A DNA stretch of 34,442 nt from an uncultured Methylophilaceae bacterium. GTDB lineage: Bacteria > Pseudomonadota > Gammaproteobacteria > Burkholderiales > Methylophilaceae. Of the stretch, positions 1,626-8,640 are shown one piece after another (the first letter of the stretch is position 1; each line of letters begins with the position of its first letter). The stretch covers positions 1 through 34,442 of the forward strand of contig CAJBIA010000038.1 of NCBI GenBank assembly GCA_903953055.1, given 5' to 3'. Both the position numbers and the translations under genes were made by a program. The notes beneath the pieces are model-generated. The model worked only from the letters and a program-made list of their open reading frames with translations, searched no databases and was not told the DNA's origin.

Positions 1626-3146
1626 ATGGCCAATCAATCTAACAAACAACCTAGCCAACAAGAAGTGCAACCGCTGCTTAATTTGCTCAACGCCGGCCAA
1701 CTAGCTAATGCGGCAAGCATGGCGAAATCTTTGCTAGCGAATTATCCAAATACTTTCATTCTACATAATGTGCTCGGTATCGCTTTGGATGGACTTGGGC
1801 AATATGGTGAAGCGATCAACAGTTACCGGAACGCGCTTAAATTACAACCAAACATGCCTGATTTGCACTACAACCTTGGAATTGTACAAGCCAATGTTGG
1901 GCAATTTAATGAAGCTGCTGCCAGTTACCGTAAAGCCATTGCCTTACAACCTCGCTTCTTTGAAGCTTATGGCAACCTAGGCACCTTATTACAAAAACAA
2001 GGTAAATTAGAAGAAGCTGTGGCAAGTTATCGTAAGGGACTTTCAATTAATGCAGATGCTCGAGGCCACTTTAATCTAGGCACGGCATTGCGGGATCAAG
2101 GTAAATTAGATGACGCTATTAAGAGTTATCGTCAAGCAATTCACTTATTTCCCAATTACTCAGATGCTCATAGCAATTTGGGAGAAACCTTGCGTGACCA
2201 AGGTAATATGCAAGAAGCGATTGAAAGTTACCAAAATGCTTTAGCGCTTAACCCCAATCATCCCAGCGCCAATTACAACATGGCTGAATTCTTATACCTT
2301 GCTAAACGCTTTGACGAAGCAATTCCTCACTTTGAGCGAAGCCAAATCGATGATTGGCTAGAACGAAGTATGTATTGCTTATATAAAGCGGAACGCTTTG
2401 ATGAATTTAAAACCAAACTCGATCAAATAGTAAGCGCCGGAAAACATACGGCGCCATTTCTTGCTACGCTTGCAACTCACTATGCAGTTAATTTTGGGGT
2501 AAAAGATACTTATAACTTTTGTAAAAATGGCTTTGACTTTGTTTATAACGCCAAAATTCCTGAACTCTCGGAACCCAACAGTCCACTTTTAAAGTCACTG
2601 CTAAGCGACATCAACAATGCTGAGATTGCGGAGCGCGTGCAAGGGATGTTGCATAATGGAAAACAATCTGCAGGCAATTTATTTAAACGCCCAGAGGCTT
2701 CATTTAGAACGTTAGGTGAATTGGTAAAAAAAGAATTTTTAAATTACAAAACCAAGTTTTCTGGAGCGGACTGCGAACTCATTAAATCTTTTCCTGAAGA
2801 ACTTGAATTCACCAGTTCGTGGTATGTAAAAATGCGCCAGGGGGGACATCTAGATGCCCATATTCATGAAATTGGTTGGATTAGCGGTGCCGTCTATCTA
2901 GCGATGCCTTCTGACAAAAAAACGCCTGAAGAAGGCGCTTTTGAATACGGGATACATGGCGATGCCTATCCTCAAAAACACAAAGACTTCCCAGTGGGCA
3001 GGGTGATTCCAAATGTGGGTGAGATTGTGCTTTTCCCTTCCTCACTATTTCACAGAACCATCCCATTTACCTCTAGCGAAGAACGCATTTGTATTGCCTT
3101 TGATCTCAAACCAACCAACGCATCAACGGCTCGAAGTAACTACTAA
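1626..3146 (+). CDS. TPR-repeat protein with C-terminal putative 2OG-Fe(II) oxygenase domain
   Basis: The product is 506 residues. Residues about 15-245 are six or so tandem tetratricopeptide repeats of 34 residues, each with the W/Y-LG-(10)-A-(3)-Y-A pattern, for example YNLGIVQANVGQFNEAAASY. Residues about 395-497 resemble the small 2OG-Fe(II) oxygenase domain found behind TPR arrays: MRQGGHLDAHIHEIGWISGA holds candidate iron ligands His412/His414, and FPSSLFHRTIPF holds the distal His476 with Arg477. The conserved acidic ligand of the HxD motif is not obvious, so activity is uncertain. The family may hydroxylate a protein or peptide presented by the repeats; this is inference. No signal peptide is seen. 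The gene lies 20 bases after the YihY gene, and its stop interlocks with the convergent CDF gene (3143-3146). Confidence 0.8.
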   Translation: MANQSNKQPSQQEVQPLLNLLNAGQLANAASMAKSLLANYPNTFILHNVLGIALDGLGQYGEAINSYRNALKLQPNMPDLHYNLGIVQANVGQFNEAAASYRKAIALQPRFFEAYGNLGTLLQKQGKLEEAVASYRKGLSINADARGHFNLGTALRDQGKLDDAIKSYRQAIHLFPNYSDAHSNLGETLRDQGNMQEAIESYQNALALNPNHPSANYNMAEFLYLAKRFDEAIPHFERSQIDDWLERSMYCLYKAERFDEFKTKLDQIVSAGKHTAPFLATLATHYAVNFGVKDTYNFCKNGFDFVYNAKIPELSEPNSPLLKSLLSDINNAEIAERVQGMLHNGKQSAGNLFKRPEASFRTLGELVKKEFLNYKTKFSGADCELIKSFPEELEFTSSWYVKMRQGGHLDAHIHEIGWISGAVYLAMPSDKKTPEEGAFEYGIHGDAYPQKHKDFPVGRVIPNVGEIVLFPSSLFHRTIPFTSSEERICIAFDLKPTNASTARSNY

Positions 3147-4333
3147 TATAGTTTAGCGGCAAGCCTAATGACACTAAAGTAAGGATGGCCAACCAACCTT
3201 TCCATAATTAACTGATTTGCTTTTGTGATAGCGGCTTTTGTTTTCAGTGCATCGGACGAAATCAAAACATCTGCTTCGACTTTGCCAGCAAGATAATGAA
3301 ACGTTACTTGCTCTGGCTCCGTCAAACCATTAAGCACCTCTGATAAAGCTTCTAATAGCTCTTCACGACTAGGAAATATCGGTGGGATTTCTTCACCGTA
3401 ACCCGCATCATCTTCGGTATCAACGTGCACTAATACATTGTTGACGGACTCATGAGTCTCAATTACACGTTTACGTGCCCTTTCAGCAATACTATGACCC
3501 TCAGACACACTAATTTTTGAATCTACAAGAATATGGGCATCCACTAATACGCGATGTGCCATTTTTCTTGTTCTTAAATCATGAACATTTTGTACACCTT
3601 GCGTGTCCATTAGGGTCTGGCGGATGCTAGAAACTTCTTCAAAAGACAAACCAGCATCGATTAATTCTTGAAAAGCTTCCCAGGCAAACATTAGTCCCAT
3701 TCTTACAATCATGAAGCCCACTAAAATTGCAGCAACAGAATCTGCATAAATAAAGCCCAACATATTAGCCGCAATACCAACGGCTACTACAAGTGATGAA
3801 GCGGCATCTGATCTCGCGTGCCATGCGTTGGCGATCAACATAGGAGATCTTAAATGCTCTCCCACTTTAAGCATGTAGCGAAATAAGCCCTCTTTGGCAA
3901 GGAGCGCTAATCCTGCCGTCCATAAGGCTAAAGAGGTCACCGGCGGCATGTTGCCAAGATTCTCTAATTTCATGGCAGCACCATACATAATCCCGAGCCC
4001 TGTCAGGACAAGAATTGCCCCTAAAATCAAAGAGGCAGCAGTTTCTATGCGGCCATGGCCATAAGGGTGAGTATCATCAGCAGGAGACTTACTATGGTAA
4101 CTAGCAATCAATACCAAAAAGTCTGAAATTAAATCCGAAAGAGAGTGGACTCCATCCGCAATTAATGATTGTGAGTGCGCAAATATACCAGCCAAGACCT
4201 GGACGATGGTTAATCCAATATTCACAAACACACTAATCCAAGTACAACGATTCGAAAGCGCGTATCGCCTTGGATCATTAAAAGACAAAGCATCTGCGTG
4301 CGAATGTGAGTGTGAATGTTTGTGTTGGATCAT
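3143..4333 (-). CDS. Cation diffusion facilitator (CDF) metal exporter
   Basis: The 396-residue protein has six predicted membrane spans (about residues 30-220) and a cytoplasmic C-terminal dimer domain extended to about 390. The transport site looks like His63-x3-Asp67 in helix 2 and His172-x3-Asp176 in helix 5, an HD-HD arrangement usually linked with zinc preference rather than the DD-HD of FieF. The motif DDTHPYGHGRIE at about 86-97 is diagnostic of the MMT1/FieF-like branch. A His-rich N-terminus (HKHSHSHSHAD) may act as a metal-binding tail. CDF proteins export Zn(II), Fe(II), Cd(II) or similar ions by proton antiport. The ATG at 4333 is followed directly by the His-rich stretch. The 3' end overlaps the TPR gene by four bases. 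Confidence 0.9.
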   Translation of the reverse strand: MIQHKHSHSHSHADALSFNDPRRYALSNRCTWISVFVNIGLTIVQVLAGIFAHSQSLIADGVHSLSDLISDFLVLIASYHSKSPADDTHPYGHGRIETAASLILGAILVLTGLGIMYGAAMKLENLGNMPPVTSLALWTAGLALLAKEGLFRYMLKVGEHLRSPMLIANAWHARSDAASSLVVAVGIAANMLGFIYADSVAAILVGFMIVRMGLMFAWEAFQELIDAGLSFEEVSSIRQTLMDTQGVQNVHDLRTRKMAHRVLVDAHILVDSKISVSEGHSIAERARKRVIETHESVNNVLVHVDTEDDAGYGEEIPPIFPSREELLEALSEVLNGLTEPEQVTFHYLAGKVEADVLISSDALKTKAAITKANQLIMERLVGHPYFSVIRLAAKLY

Positions 4334-4480: not shown

Positions 4481-5545
4481 TTGCAAAAACTCACCACCAA
4501 TACCGTTAGACAGATTCTATTTGCACTTTTTGTTGTCAGCCTTTGTATCGGCGTATGGGTGGTTCTTTCACCATTTTTTACTTCTCTAGTGTGGGCTTGT
4601 ACTCTTGCCTATGTAAGTTGGCCTGCATACGTTTGGTTATTAAATAAATTAGGTGGAAGGGCGTCGCTTGCGGCACTTTTGATGACTATTCTGATTGCTA
4701 CTGCCGTCATTACCCCTTTAGTTTGGTTATTTACTGCATTAAAGGACGAGCTCGCTGTTGCTTCAGCGCTTTTTACTAGCAAACTTGCCAATGGCAGCAT
4801 CGTGCCGCCAAAATTCTTTACCGAATTACCAATCATTGGGCCCGACATTTCAATGTGGTTCTCAAAATCATTAGCCAATCCAACAGAGTTCAGGACTGAA
4901 GTTCATAACCTATTAATCAATGCAGATCAGAAATTGATAACCATCATTGGCGGCGTTGGACGCAATCTTGCCAACATGTCATTTGCTTTGCTAGCGCTAT
5001 TTTTTACATTTAAAGATGGATTTAGTTTTATGGTGCAATCTGAACGCATCCTCGAATCCATGTTGGGCATTCGTGCACGCAGCTATTTTCAAGCTGCAGG
5101 AGATGCAACGCGCGGGGTCGTTTACGGAATTGTTTTAACCGCCATTGCTCAAGGCGCGGTAGCGGGCCTTGGCTATTGGATGATTGGTTTAGAAGCGCCT
5201 TTAATGCTTGCTGGAATTACTGGGCTATTTGCACTGGTTCCATTTGCAACTCCTTTATTTTGGGGGAGTATCGGTGTATGGTTATTATTAACTGGCAATA
5301 CCGTTGGTGGCATTGAACTTCTGCTCTGGGGAGCATTAGTGGTTTCTTGGGTTGATAATATTGTGCGGCCTGTCATCCTCGCCAAGAATGTAAAAATTCC
5401 ATTTATTCTGGCATTCTTTGGTGTGCTAGGTGGGCTATCAGCATTTGGCTTCATCGGATTATTCCTTGGCCCGGTGATTTTAGCGGTGGCTTTTGCAGTT
5501 TGGCAGGAATGGTTAGAAACTCACCCCGATAGAAACTCACATTAA
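4481..5545 (+). CDS. AI-2E/PerM-family inner-membrane transporter
   Basis: The 354-residue protein has about eight hydrophobic spans, with the long mid-protein cytoplasmic segment and conserved C-terminal helices (GLFALVPFATPLFWGSIGVW, SWVDNIVRPVILAKN, FGFIGLFLGPVILAVAFAVW) typical of the AI-2E transporter family (formerly UPF0118, PerM/YdiK/TqsA). Substrates vary; some members export autoinducer-2 and others act in Na+/H+ exchange, so no substrate is assigned. The start is TTG at 4481, preceded by a GGGGA ribosome-binding site at 4470-4474 with six-base spacing, which supports this choice. The TAA stop interlocks by four bases with the convergent gene at 5542. The gene appears monocistronic. 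Confidence 0.85.
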   Translation: MQKLTTNTVRQILFALFVVSLCIGVWVVLSPFFTSLVWACTLAYVSWPAYVWLLNKLGGRASLAALLMTILIATAVITPLVWLFTALKDELAVASALFTSKLANGSIVPPKFFTELPIIGPDISMWFSKSLANPTEFRTEVHNLLINADQKLITIIGGVGRNLANMSFALLALFFTFKDGFSFMVQSERILESMLGIRARSYFQAAGDATRGVVYGIVLTAIAQGAVAGLGYWMIGLEAPLMLAGITGLFALVPFATPLFWGSIGVWLLLTGNTVGGIELLLWGALVVSWVDNIVRPVILAKNVKIPFILAFFGVLGGLSAFGFIGLFLGPVILAVAFAVWQEWLETHPDRNSH

Positions 5546-6300
5546 CTTGAGACAGTCGCGAGCCAGAGTGAATCAATTTCACTCAGCTTTACTGCATCGA
5601 GCTCTTCTAAAACCTCCCAGTATCGTCCTGAGGAGACCATATATCCCAGTTTTTCTTCTGCTTGTAATGCAATTTCAGCCGACTCTAAATCCAGTCGTAT
5701 AACTTGCTCATTTAAAAAGTCTGGTCGATTTTTTTGATCTAAAAATTGCGTTACAGGGACTCGTGGAAATACTAACCTGGAGTCTGGCAACTCAGATAAA
5801 TTAACTACTTTGCAATTATTCATCTGCGCAATCGCCATAAAACGAGCGGATTTGGCCTCTAAAGACTGCAAGGTAATATCTGGGCGCAAAGGATCCGATT
5901 GACCATTGCCATAAAAGTGACTGGGATTCCCATCTTGTTTTGGATAAATCATATCGCAGCCTAGGTAGGCAATGACATCAGGTTTTAAATAGCCCAAGGC
6001 CCAATATCCTGCAGTAAAGGCCATGGTGCCCCCCGCATAAACAAAACCGCCAAAACTATTTTGCTCTGGAACAAATTCATTCGCAGTAATTAAGCTTTTA
6101 TTAGTTTGAGCCAAATCAGGGGGTAAACGGTCTGCTGGAAAATCTTCAGGATAAATTAAATAGTCCCAATCCCCAGTAAGTTGCCAAGCATTATTAATAA
6201 CGACGCAACTTGAAAAAACTGATAAGTCCCAAGCTTTAACCCTTACTGCATCTGGCGCACTGCCAACTATCAATACTGCATTTAATTGCCGCTCGATCAT
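5542..6300 (-). CDS. Hypothetical protein, Rossmann-like
   Basis: I do not recognise this 252-residue protein. Its N-terminus (NAVLIVGSAPDAVRVKAW) looks like the first strand and glycine loop of a Rossmann-like fold. There follow DWDYLIYPEDFP, a Gly-rich segment FVYAGGTMAFTAGYWAL, and DVIAYLGCDMIY, a pattern seen in some DUF115-like or sialyltransferase-like nucleotide-sugar proteins; this resemblance is loose. No signal peptide or membrane span is seen. The ATG at 6300 is preferred because the frame extension to 6348 runs across a perfect palindrome (6320-6342) that looks regulatory, and the Rossmann strand starts soon after this Met. It follows the tRNA-Ile terminator on the same strand, so it probably has its own promoter. 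It ends in a four-base overlap with the permease gene. Confidence 0.6.
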   Translation of the reverse strand: MIERQLNAVLIVGSAPDAVRVKAWDLSVFSSCVVINNAWQLTGDWDYLIYPEDFPADRLPPDLAQTNKSLITANEFVPEQNSFGGFVYAGGTMAFTAGYWALGYLKPDVIAYLGCDMIYPKQDGNPSHFYGNGQSDPLRPDITLQSLEAKSARFMAIAQMNNCKVVNLSELPDSRLVFPRVPVTQFLDQKNRPDFLNEQVIRLDLESAEIALQAEEKLGYMVSSGRYWEVLEELDAVKLSEIDSLWLATVSS

Positions 6301-6319
6301 AACTTGATCCCATTTTAGA

Positions 6320-6342
6320 TTGTTCTTTATAACAAAGAACAA
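6320..6342. promoter_or_regulatory. Perfect 9-bp inverted repeat upstream of the hypothetical gene
   Basis: The arms TTGTTCTTT (6320-6328) and AAAGAACAA (6334-6342) are perfect complements separated by five bases, ATAAC. The site lies 20-42 bases before the ATG at 6300. Its dyad form suits a dimeric repressor or activator operator, or a weak AT-rich hairpin in the leader RNA. There is no T-run after it, so a terminator is unlikely. Operator function is inference. Confidence 0.4.
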
Positions 6343-6393
6343 TGCCATCCATAATTATTAACAATAGGCTTGCATACCTAAGGTCACAGATAC

Positions 6394-6426
6394 AAAAATG
6401 GCTTAGGAATTTCTTCCTAAGCCATT
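6394..6426 (-). terminator. Rho-independent terminator after tRNA-Ile
   Basis: On the minus strand a perfect 13-bp stem (arms 6414-6426 and 6397-6409) encloses a GAAA tetraloop and continues into a run of five T (6398-6394). It begins eight bases after the tRNA CCA end. It would end the rpoD-tRNA transcript and separate it from the hypothetical gene downstream. Confidence 0.85.
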
Positions 6427-6433
6427 CATTTTA

Positions 6434-6712
6434 TGGTGGCCCCTCTGTGAGTCGAACACAGCACCAACGGATTCTGGTTTGTGTGGCTTTCACCACTCCC
6501 TGGACTATGCCTTCACCGTGGCTTACGCTTTAGGTGGGTGCCGTCTAGTCTCTACACGTTCCTAATATTTCTATTAGGCTTCGCTCGGCATTGCCTTGTG
6601 CATTGCTGCCGTCAGGTTTCACCGAATTTGACACCATCCCATACGCAGTTTCCAAACGTATGGCACAATTTTTATGAGTCCGCTGCTCTAACCAAGCATG
6701 AGCTAAGGGGCC
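6434..6712 (-). tRNA. tRNA-Ile(CAU), split by a group I intron in the anticodon loop
   Basis: The 5' exon is 6712-6674 (39 nt) and the 3' exon is 6473-6434 (40 nt); joined they give a 79-nt tRNA with encoded CCA. Acceptor GGCCCCT pairs with AGGGGCC. The D-stem is GCTC/GAGC, the anticodon stem GCGGA/TCCGT and the T-stem CTGTG/CACAG. The joined loop reads CTCATAA, so the anticodon is CAU. The body matches tRNA-Ile2, whose C34 is converted to lysidine by TilS so that it reads AUA codons, rather than a methionine tRNA. The D-loop is three bases longer than in E. coli. The 5' end lies 17 bases after the rpoD stop and no separate promoter is evident, so it is probably processed from the rpoD transcript by RNase P. 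Without splicing the tRNA cannot function. Confidence 0.93.
6474..6673 (-). ncRNA. Group I self-splicing intron (IC3-like, Azoarcus type) inside tRNA-Ile(CAU)
   Basis: This 200-nt insertion begins right after the anticodon CAU and ends with the expected terminal G (complement of 6474). All hallmark elements are visible on the minus strand. The guide GTG at 6666-6664 pairs with exon CAU to give P1 with the conserved U-G wobble. P2 is a 7-bp stem (6657-6663 with 6639-6645) capped by a GGAAAC loop. The P3 strand GGTGTC pairs with GGCACC. The R element GTAGAGACTAGACGGCACC (6555-6537) holds the guanosine-binding P7 strand, and the S partner is GGCATAGTCC. An arm CCTAATA-GAAA-TATTAGG lies at 6561-6578, and P9 (GTGGT-GAAA-GCCAC) at 6483-6496. 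The core closely resembles the Azoarcus tRNA-Ile intron of about 205 nt. No homing endonuclease gene is present. Confidence 0.93.
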
Positions 6713-6729
6713 GAAAACTTAAATGGAAC

Positions 6730-8640
6730 TTAATCTTGTCCTGTTTCTAAAAAGCTACGTAAACGTTCTGAGCGAGTGGGGTGACGTAACTTGCGTAACG
6801 CCTTAGCTTCTATTTGACGAATACGCTCACGCGTCACATCAAACTGCTTACCCACTTCTTCTAATGTATGGTCAGTATTCATTTCAATACCAAATCGCAT
6901 ACGCAAAACTTTAGCTTCACGAGCAGTCAATGATTCCAAAACTTCTTTGGTCGCATCACGCAAGCTTGCATAAACGGCTGCATCAACCGGCGCAAGCGTT
7001 GCATTATCTTCAATGAAATCACCTAAATGTGAGTCATCATCATCACCGATTGGCGTTTCCATAGAAATCGGCTCTTTGCTGATTTTAAGAATCTTACGAA
7101 TCTTATCTTCTGGCATTTCCATTTTCTCAGCAAGCGTTGCTGGATCTGGCTCCAACCCAGTTTCTTGCAAGATCTGACGGCTGATACGATTCATCTTATT
7201 GATGGTTTCGATCATATGCACAGGAATACGAATCGTACGGGCTTGGTCAGCAATAGAACGAGTAATTGCCTGACGAATCCACCAAGTCGCGTAAGTAGAG
7301 AACTTGTATCCACGACGATATTCAAATTTATCAACCGCTTTCATCAAGCCAATATTACCTTCTTGAATTAAATCCAAGAATTGCAAACCACGGTTGGTAT
7401 ATTTTTTAGCAATTGAAATGACTAAACGCAAGTTAGCCTCAATCATTTCACGTTTAGCCCGACGAGCACGGGCTTCGCCAGTGGTCATTTGCTTGTTAAT
7501 GTCTTTTAGTTCTTTAATTGGAATGCCAACATCATCTTGTAAATCTAACAAACGTTGTTGTTGATCCACAATCGAGTGTTTAAAACGTTCTAGTTTTTGC
7601 ACATATGGCTTATCAACAGCCAACTCAGAAGGAAGCCAGGCAAGTTCGCATTCATTGCCTGGAAATGATTTGATAAAGTGCGTACGTGGCATACCAGATT
7701 TATCAACACAGAATTCCATGATTTTACGTTCATGACCGCGTACTTTTTCAACCATGTCCCGAACTTGGCCACATAACGCTTCAACTTGTTTAGCTGAAAA
7801 ACGGAAAACTGTGAGCTCTTCTAAAATTGAGGCTTGTAATGCTTGATATTCTGGGTCTTGGGAGCCTTTGCTCTCCAAAATCACCGTCATTTTCTTATTG
7901 GATTCGCGGATAACAGCAAAACGCTTCAGCACTTCTTCTTTTAGCTTAGCTAAGGCTTCAGCAGAGATGGCAGCCGCTTTTGCACCGTCATCGTCCTCTT
8001 CTTCCTCATCATCTATATCTTCTTCCTCAGTGTCGTCTGCAACAGCAGACATGACTTCATCCATGTTGACATCTGAATCAATCAAACCATCCACTAAATC
8101 ATCAACACTCAGTTCATCTGCTTCCACCTTATCCACCATTGCCAACAGTTCAGCAATGGTTGTTGGACAAGCAGCAATGGCTTGTACCATGTGCTTTAAG
8201 CCATCTTCGATACGTTTAGCGATTTCAATTTCGCCTTCACGGGTCAGCAAATCTACTGTGCCCATTTCACGCATATACATACGGACTGGATCAGTGGTTC
8301 GCCCAAACTCAGAATCAACAGTCGCTAAAGCTTGTTCGGCCTCTTCAACCGCATCTTCGTCAGCCACAGCTGGCGGTGCATCTGACATCAATAAGACTTC
8401 TGCATCAGGCGCCTCTTCATACACCTGAATACCCATGTCATTGATCATGCCAATGATGCCGTCTATTTGTTCAGAGTCTTGAACATCATCTGGTAAATGG
8501 TCGTTGATTTCGGCGAATGTCAAATAGCCGCGCTCTTTACCTAAAACAATAAGTAACTTAAGGCGTGTACGTCCGTCAACGGCTTGCACGTCGCTTTTAT
8601 CGAAATTCTGTTCGTTTTGTTGATCTTTATCTTTTGCCAT
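6730..8640 (-). CDS. rpoD: RNA polymerase primary sigma factor sigma-70
   Basis: The 636-residue protein has the full primary sigma architecture. It has a short region 1.1 and region 1.2 ([21 protein letters not shown]). A non-conserved insert carries a strongly acidic run (about [20 protein letters not shown]). Region 2 contains [19 protein letters not shown] for -10 recognition and melting, followed by region 3. Region 4 contains [20 protein letters not shown], the -35 helix-turn-helix. It directs RNA polymerase to housekeeping promoters. The N-terminus retains the region 1.1 domain that occludes DNA in free sigma. It lies 68 bases downstream of dnaG in the rpsU-yqeY-dnaG-rpoD block, and tRNA-Ile follows the stop by only 17 bases. 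The length is close to E. coli RpoD (613). Confidence 0.99.

Follow-up and report, generated by a model that had tools for sequence, protein, structure and literature searches.

A group I intron breaks an att-type core in a bacterial tRNA-Ile2(CAU) gene and belongs to a lineage found in putative tRNA-dependent integrative elements

Results and discussion

The tRNA-Ile2(CAU) gene and its surroundings

The window, by which we mean the whole 34,442-nt stretch of DNA analysed here from an uncultured Methylophilaceae bacterium, carries on its minus strand a tRNA-Ile2(CAU) gene (positions 6434-6712) that is recognized both by reading of the sequence and by ARAGORN. Its 39-nt 5' exon (6674-6712) has CTCAT as its last letters and comprises the 5' strand of the acceptor stem, the D arm, the 5' strand of the anticodon stem, U33 and the anticodon CAU, and its 40-nt 3' exon (6434-6473) ends with an encoded CCA. 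Between them lies a 200-nt group I intron that starts at 6673 and finishes with a terminal G at 6474. A first-pass annotation, made from the letters of the sequence, had described a 200-nt insertion splitting the tRNA exactly after CAU, and the borders indeed agree in the sequence and in ARAGORN: with its intron option the program reports one gene at the locus, with anticodon cat and intron i(40,200), and without that option it calls no tRNA in the window. Once the exons are joined, ARAGORN calls an ordinary cat tRNA; the acceptor stem is paired at 7 of 7 positions. In comparison with the att junctions of relatives, which are described below, the CTCAT of the 5' exon (6674-6678) corresponds to the left part of a core CTCATAA(TC) and the beginning of the 3' exon (6470-6473; AA or AATC) to its right part, such that in the window's gene an att-type core is broken by the intron.

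The tRNA gene lies about 20 bp downstream of an rpoD-like gene of 636 residues (6730-8640, minus strand; named from a reading of the sequence), and the intronless tRNA of relatives has the same neighbour. Directly after the tRNA, a hairpin followed by a run of T residues (6394-6425, minus strand) looks terminator-like by eye. A 268-residue open reading frame just downstream (5542-6348) has no match in Pfam or NCBIfam, and in a tblastn search among the compared loci it matched the window's own locus only.

This gene appears to be the bacterium's sole AUA-reading tRNA gene. A search of the genome with RF00005 returned 32 matches, 29 of them above the cut-off, and ARAGORN applied to these stretches and to the window gene distinguished three CAU genes: the window's, an elongator Met and an initiator Met, the latter two types (L012, L027) being assigned by reading, as ARAGORN labels every CAU gene Met. 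The window gene is thus a CAU tRNA distinct from both Met genes. No tRNA-Ile(UAU) was seen by ARAGORN on the genome's RF00005 stretches, and with up to 3 mismatches allowed the 3' half matched nowhere in the genome but in the window gene; an intact second tRNA-Ile2, whose presence the first-pass annotation had said would mark this copy as a dead pseudogene, was not found in the 89.56%-complete assembly (159 contigs). That absence is weak evidence, because the genome is incomplete and tRNA-Ile(GAU), which is expected to exist, was likewise not seen in the tRNA survey. The earlier statement that this is the only AUA-reading type accordingly holds as far as the assembled genome goes and is weakened by its incompleteness. 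The genome encodes tilS (TIGR02432, 189.3 bits against a cut-off of 93.6; TIGR02433, 48.3 bits against 20.2), and AUA occurs 52 times among the 8282 codons of 24 window open reading frames.

Structure of the intron

Using Infernal, positions 6481-6686 match the full length of the group I intron model RF00028 (model positions 1-253) with 49.5 bits and an E value of 9e-12. This score is 0.5 bit below the gathering score of 50 bits, which is why a search of the whole window against Rfam at the gathering threshold listed nothing. Two further matches, to RF02820 (E 0.82) and to one microRNA family (E 0.6), were taken as chance.

The assignment as a group I intron, already made in the first-pass annotation, is upheld by this match together with covariation, which was assessed after writing the expected group I helices onto 33 aligned introns that include the window's and comprise 32 distinct sequences. 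In these helices 94.0% of cells are paired as compared to 86.9% in shuffles, and 108 cells are changed on both sides as compared to 29.0, a value reached by 0 of 500 shuffles; at the level of pairs, 19 show changes on both sides as compared to 13.6 in shuffles, and when the pairing partners are slid against each other a mere 28.9-39.0% are paired. Changes on both sides are seen in P7, P9.0, P2 and P9. The last pair of P7, beside the guanosine site, is A-U in 26 of 32 introns and U-A in the other 6, and P9.0 at the 3' splice site is G-C, A-U or C-G. P3 is invariant and therefore carries no covariation information, and the distal part of P6 as drawn is paired in just 65.4% of cells. In the window the two strands of P7, the guanosine-binding helix, are assigned from covariation to GACTA at 6546-6550 and TAGTC at 6503-6507, both on the minus strand.

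The internal guide GTG (6664-6666, minus strand), which is invariant in the alignment, would pair with the CAU of the 5' exon to form P1 with a U-G pair at the splice site. The window intron carries the expected splice-site signs, namely a U at the 5' site facing the guide G and a terminal G at 6474, and the guide and terminal G that had been pointed out earlier can both be read in the sequence. Group I introns splice themselves with guanosine, and the covariation over 32 distinct introns supports the view that this family is presumably a working ribozyme, from which normal tRNA would be released. The intron has no room for a homing gene: the only listed open reading frame of at least 80 residues over it (6481-6750) encodes 89 residues on the opposite strand, in agreement with the earlier remark that a homing gene is absent.

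Distribution among relatives

Matches to RF00028 occur in 8 of 61 genomes, comprising the window's own and 60 relatives. Six of the eight lie in tRNA-Ile2 after CAU, and ARAGORN places the other two (G045, G058) in tRNA-Leu(UAA); the latter are group I introns at L007 and L008 (same order). Across the family, 12 of 150 genomes have a group I match under stricter filters that lose some weak matches, and a pattern of the intronless type, at up to 3 mismatches, is matched in 129 of 150, a count that includes some tRNA-Lys genes. A pattern combining exon and intron core identified 39 stretches in a genome collection, in many betaproteobacterial groups and one Methylococcaceae MAG, and 6 stretches in viral contigs; as named in the records, the spread includes Methylophilaceae, Comamonadaceae, Oxalobacteraceae, Rhodocyclaceae, Neisseriaceae and others. 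None of the 11 matching records in a phage collection, and none of the 9 in a plasmid collection, covers 80% of the gene. Patchy distribution alone was dropped as proof of lateral transfer, the split host genes described below being better evidence.

Several individual occurrences deserve mention. Plasmid pB1A of Comamonas aquatica (L219) partially matches, at 8001-8107, the 3' end of the intron together with the 3' exon (82%), and this stretch lies between a transposase gene and type I restriction genes. A phage-like viral contig (L088) encodes a UvsX-like recombinase and a single-stranded DNA-binding protein, and has a TilS-like gene (3132-3776, TIGR02432) directly upstream of its intron-bearing tRNA-Ile2; because the two adjoin, the lysidine enzyme travels there with its tRNA. 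Another viral contig (L085) has a terminase large subunit gene, a RuvC-like gene and an intron-bearing tRNA-Ile2 whose intron groups with that of Sterolibacterium in the intron tree. Genome G104 (L128 / L152) has a degenerate second intron-bearing tRNA-Ile2 copy approximately 37 kb from the main one.

Host tRNA genes split at a short core

Upstream of the intron-bearing tRNA, many loci contain the 5' half of a further tRNA-Ile2; it breaks off in the anticodon loop and gives way to about 120-215 bp of other DNA (306 in L066, with Ns). To count such cases we tabulated 49 rows (the window, L009, L046-L090, L006 and L194) and set aside the six viral rows together with L071 (which continues L056) and L009 (on one contig with L051), leaving 41 chromosomal rows, to which three genomes contribute two rows each; L063, which ends 59 nt upstream of the tRNA, was excluded from the assessable rows. 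Element marks, defined as an orphan 5' half of the host tRNA-Ile2, a tandem att junction or both halves, lie beside the intron-bearing tRNA-Ile2 in 29 of the 40 assessable rows. A script found the orphan 5' half in 24 rows: 18 continue as CTCATAATC, five continue only as CTCATAA (L046, L060, L075, L079, L194) and L066 has Ns there. Five more marked rows came from reading the printed upstream sequence: L048, L051 and L082 show a tandem att junction, L080 has a half that is truncated, and in L050 the flanking halves have the other orientation (seen in L164). No mark was found in the remaining 11 of 40 (the window, L049, L052, L059, L062, L064, L070, L078, L081, L083 and L084), of which L081 is a degenerate copy. 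By comparison, a control on the upstream side of 43 intact tRNA-Ile2 genes without intron, all from relatives, detected neither an orphan half nor CTCATAATC at any of them (at least 300 nt available for 41 of the 43). Degenerate stretches resembling the 3' half lie near the intronless genes L112, L133 and L138, with one more elsewhere in G138 (L141), and elements lacking this intron therefore exist there too.

Both orphan halves were recovered in 11 loci, nine with this intron, one with another intron (G229) and one with an intronless replacement (G427, in which the halves lie on two contigs). In these loci the host tRNA is split at the core and left unrebuilt. Rejoining the halves gives a cat tRNA by ARAGORN in 11 of 11 loci, and halves from the same locus pair at 11-12 of 12 acceptor and anticodon-stem positions, whereas cross-paired halves reach a mean of 9.4 of 12, with the full 12 in 11 of 110 combinations. 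When the orphan 5' half is instead combined with the 3' exon of the replacement, in three loci, 5, 5 and 6 of 7 acceptor positions and 4 of 5 stem positions in each are paired. The core in the att junctions is 7-9 bp long, reading CTCATAA and often CTCATAATC (9 bp), and the element-borne tRNA is of the same isotype as the split host tRNA.

Whole elements and their integrases

In the Comamonas sp. lk MAG an orphan 5' half and the matching orphan 3' half are approximately 24 kb apart and enclose a foreign-type replacement tRNA-Ile2 with intron, a trypsin-like gene, a 478-residue integrase and a 194-residue second recombinase, as well as restriction genes (a type III enzyme with its methylase and a DrmD-like helicase). 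Limnohabitans parvus has two tandem elements, and the hybrid junction with CTCATAATC that was predicted between them was found. Tyrosine integrases need a core and flanking sites; by eye, repeats of the CTACACAC / GCTTACACAC type flank the core on both sides in an arm-like manner in Limnohabitans, G218 and G427, and in Comamonas the right-hand copies are less clear. The Limnohabitans integrase P0006 matches PF00589, and P0005 matches SAM-like phage-integrase domains only. A second, small tyrosine recombinase of 190-196 residues is also present in these elements (L211, L159, L157/L158), and its L159 copy matches PF00589.

An integrase was seen in only 14 loci, six found via the integrase and eight via the intron. 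The eight all carry this intron and, having been found through it, are a biased part of the 14; they include four loci with a long integrase (L046, L069, L071, L076), two in which the contig end truncates it (L058, L074) and two that retain a short remnant (L055, L075). Four integrases from intron-linked elements were aligned (A3) and used to search 399 genomes of the order; 13 had a match at an E value of 1e-20 or better, these hits not being selected for introns. The six closest (L192, L193, L194, L195, L196 and L197) all adjoin tRNA-Ile2. One has the same intron, and two have a different group I intron (L192, 6259-6584; L195, 11908-12231) that lies between U33 and C34, 3 nt upstream of the usual site, and matches RF00028 with 30.3 and 34 bits (E 5e-6 and 4e-7), both below the gathering score. 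Two more have intronless replacements in which the anticodon stem is altered (GCGACTCATAATCGC, GTCGACTCATAATCGAT) and the 9-bp CTCATAATC is kept. At L197 (G256) the tRNA next to the integrase is intact, lacks an intron and has the full core; we read it as one probably rebuilt at the junction, and a search at up to 3 mismatches recovered no orphan 3' half, either from the stretches that follow or from other parts of G256. The other seven matching genomes have more distant integrases, and the loci fetched from six of them contain a gene for tRNA-Lys or tRNA-Phe, either whole or as an orphan 5' half.

Orphan 5' halves resembling tRNA-Lys(CUU) and tRNA-Phe lie beside such distant integrase relatives at L172 and L179. 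In G368 an intact native tRNA is present on another contig besides the element. In G444, a contig (L198) other than the one with its intron-bearing element has an orphan 3' half of tRNA-Ile2 at 5394, just before a cut-off integrase gene. G016 has an integrase that reads as P4-like (L043, 4088-5425) approximately 100 bp past its intron-bearing tRNA. We initially regarded this integrase as part of the element, but it has one other match among the loci compared (L077) and seems to belong to a separate island at the 3' end of the tRNA.

Origin of the window's intron

We built an intron tree of 44 rows and 205 retained columns (midpoint root; bootstrap not quite settled), for which the duplicate L009 and four rows with an incomplete intron were omitted; L063 was counted as element-type solely because of its arm motif, and L071 because of its identity with L056. 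The window intron falls in a clade with the element-type L051 and L063 (support 99/93), and the enclosing clade (97/94) comprises 16 rows, 15 of them element-type. By intron phylogeny only, the window intron may thus be said to derive from the element lineage. In the tree as drawn, the unmarked rows of Rhodocyclaceae, Pseudoduganella and Uliginosibacterium branch at the base, as they would if intron-bearing tRNAs had at first been plain and were captured by elements later.

Among the compared loci the nearest relative by rpoD is G007, whose rpoD is 98% identical to the window's. At its rpoD locus (L002 / L040) it has a different group I intron after CAU in tRNA-Ile2 (86.3 bits, 245 nt) with an orphan 5' half upstream of the intron-bearing tRNA, and another intron, resembling the window's, follows a tandem junction at a different place in this genome. 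The orphan 5' half in G001 matches that of the replacement gene at all 39 nt and is 179 bp away from it, and a single deletion between such repeats would give the layout of the window. The window's exons are identical to the intronless tRNA of G005, a member of the same genus, and gain of the intron in place therefore fits too. Nothing else in the 34-kb window matches the 3' half (up to 14 substitutions) or the 5' half (up to 12), no att junction was found there, and the A3 integrase was not found in the window's genome.

A proposed role in tRNA-dependent integration

In our main reading, to which we assign a probability of approximately 0.65, this intron lineage is carried by tRNA-dependent elements, the intron shields the replacement gene, and the window holds a leftover replacement gene or intron. 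A lambda-like tyrosine integrase would recombine attP with the host tRNA-Ile2 gene in its anticodon loop, at the core CTCATAA (often CTCATAATC), and integration would split this essential gene. The element would bring a complete replacement tRNA-Ile2 some 120-215 bp inside its left end, and in many elements the group I intron would break the core within that gene. The DNA of the replacement would then no longer be an att site, so that it could neither recombine with its own element nor be re-targeted by relatives, and splicing would give back a normal tRNA from it. At the window, the element would have been lost, as would the broken host copy, and the replacement gene, or at least the intron, would remain, which makes the locus a likely domesticated relic of an element. 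More tentatively, and at slightly less than even odds in our estimate, the intron serves as camouflage of the att site against own and rival integrases and is kept by selection on DNA recombination. Such a role would explain both the spread without a homing gene and the exact nucleotide position of the intron. An obligatory loss of the core in all replacements is made less likely by the two intronless replacements that keep CTCATAATC with the flanking stem alone altered, and by the short shared core, which is just CTCATAA in 5 of the 24 orphan halves.

Relation to known systems

Parts of this picture have precedents. A group I intron in the pre-tRNA-Ile(CAU) of Azoarcus was reportedly described by Reinhold-Hurek and Shub in 1992 and by Tanner and Cech in 1996. 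It lies in the same tRNA as the window intron, which we take to be alike in size, site after the anticodon and core motifs. To our knowledge, no mobile element has been linked to the Azoarcus intron. That intron is named in the section of PMC4033280 available to us, and the accessible text of the tRNAscan-SE 2.0 paper (PMC8450103) gives the group I introns that interrupt tRNA-Ile2 in Acidovorax and Burkholderia as a reason for missed gene predictions. The latter are in the same gene and probably of the same intron family as the window's, and att sites are not mentioned for them in that text.

On the side of integration, the portions of Guerrero-Bustamante and Hatfull 2024 (PMC10865867) available to us describe tRNA-dependent lysogeny, in which integration destroys a tRNA and supplies another; they list tRNA-Ile2-CAT among the targets, note that close relatives differ in whether the tRNA gets rebuilt, and deal with phages of Actinobacteria, prophage Lj965 of Lactobacillus johnsonii being cited as a possible case. 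As far as those portions go, the elements described here are alike in destroying a target tRNA and supplying another, with tRNA-Ile2 as a target common to both, and L197 is comparable to the rebuilding relatives. They differ in belonging to Betaproteobacteria, and the Comamonas element, the only one searched for cargo, has restriction genes. Moreover, the replacement tRNA here often has a group I intron in the core, whereas those portions describe none for the complementing tRNAs. The excerpted Islander paper (PMC4383910) reports that genomic islands split tRNA genes, with a displaced fragment marking the end; by that excerpt, islands and elements share the split gene and the displaced fragment, and the elements here bring in addition a separate full tRNA gene as replacement. 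Group I introns in tRNA-Ile2 and tRNA-destroying, tRNA-supplying integration are therefore both already known. The window gene belongs to the tRNA-Ile2 intron family, and what is new in its relatives is tRNA-dependent integration with an intron added, a system that resembles the published tRNA-dependent lysogeny. No paper joining group I introns with tRNA-dependent integration was found in a search that left subscription literature mostly outside, which is weak evidence of absence.

Alternative explanations

The reading that competes most seriously with a protective role, and which we consider possible though rather doubtful, is that introns and tyrosine integrases both favour anticodon loops and met there by coincidence, the elements having captured intron-bearing tRNAs by chance. 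It would account for the basal position of intron-bearing tRNAs lacking marks, for the one integrase-linked tRNA with an intact core and the two that keep the 9-bp core, and it agrees with the complementing tRNAs of published tRNA-dependent phages, which are not described as intron-bearing in the portions of that work available to us. Coincidence does not readily explain, however, why different introns at two positions interrupt the same core within one integrase clade, why the two intronless replacements differ in the anticodon stem, or why element marks lie upstream of 0 of 43 ordinary tRNA-Ile2 genes. The history of the window's own gene may also have been simpler. An intron could have entered the native tRNA-Ile2 by reverse splicing or by homologous recombination with an element-borne copy and stayed as a neutral passenger, no element ever having been at the locus; the exons shared with the intronless tRNA of G005, the native-like spacing of about 20 bp to rpoD, the lack of an att remnant and the unmarked basal rows of Rhodocyclaceae, Pseudoduganella and Uliginosibacterium all agree with this. 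We nevertheless regard it as unlikely, as the window intron nests among element-borne introns and one deletion between 39-nt repeats would turn a G001-like locus into the arrangement of the window.

Two further explanations carry far less weight. If a betaproteobacterial ancestor already had the intron and most lineages lost it, the wide spread across betaproteobacterial families would fit, but such old vertical descent is very improbable: a group I match is present in only 12 of 150 family genomes, the intron-bearing tRNA of Comamonas is of foreign type and stands beside a split native one, and G007, the nearest relative by rpoD, has a different intron at the rpoD locus. The first-pass annotation had reasoned that an intron hardly able to move by itself must be an old vertical inheritance or a lateral relic. 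The lack of a homing gene on which this rested is correct, but it overlooked a vehicle, namely the replacement tRNA genes of integrative elements, and a plain old vertical history is made unlikely by the nesting within an element-borne clade and by the many family genomes that have no match. Least probable of all, to the point of being nearly negligible, is that the split gene is an unexpressed pseudogene and that an intact, unsequenced tRNA-Ile2 does the work. This draws on the 89.56% completeness of the genome and on the other needed tRNAs that are also missing from it, and is opposed by the 7 of 7 acceptor pairs, the conserved ribozyme core, the genome searches, which found no other tRNA-Ile2, and the 52 AUA codons in the 24 window open reading frames.

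Implications

The persistence of bacterial tRNA introns lacking homing genes is often left as a "vertical or lateral relic", and the main reading supplies both a concrete means of travel for them and a selective pressure that may maintain them. Under it, tRNA-dependent integration, described for actinobacterial phages, would also be used by betaproteobacterial elements, one of which carries restriction genes. It further predicts that an intron can confer immunity at the DNA level. An essential tRNA could be exchanged sideways and come to depend on a ribozyme; if camouflage is indeed its role, the host would be left with an essential tRNA that is att-proof and intron-dependent. A related arrangement may exist in the phage Fionnbharth, in whose record the tRNA-Lys reads GGCTTTTAACCGG and the presumed attP before int reads AACTTTTAATCAGCC; with attP placed by our analysis of the phage record, the spare tRNA would likewise lack the extended site.
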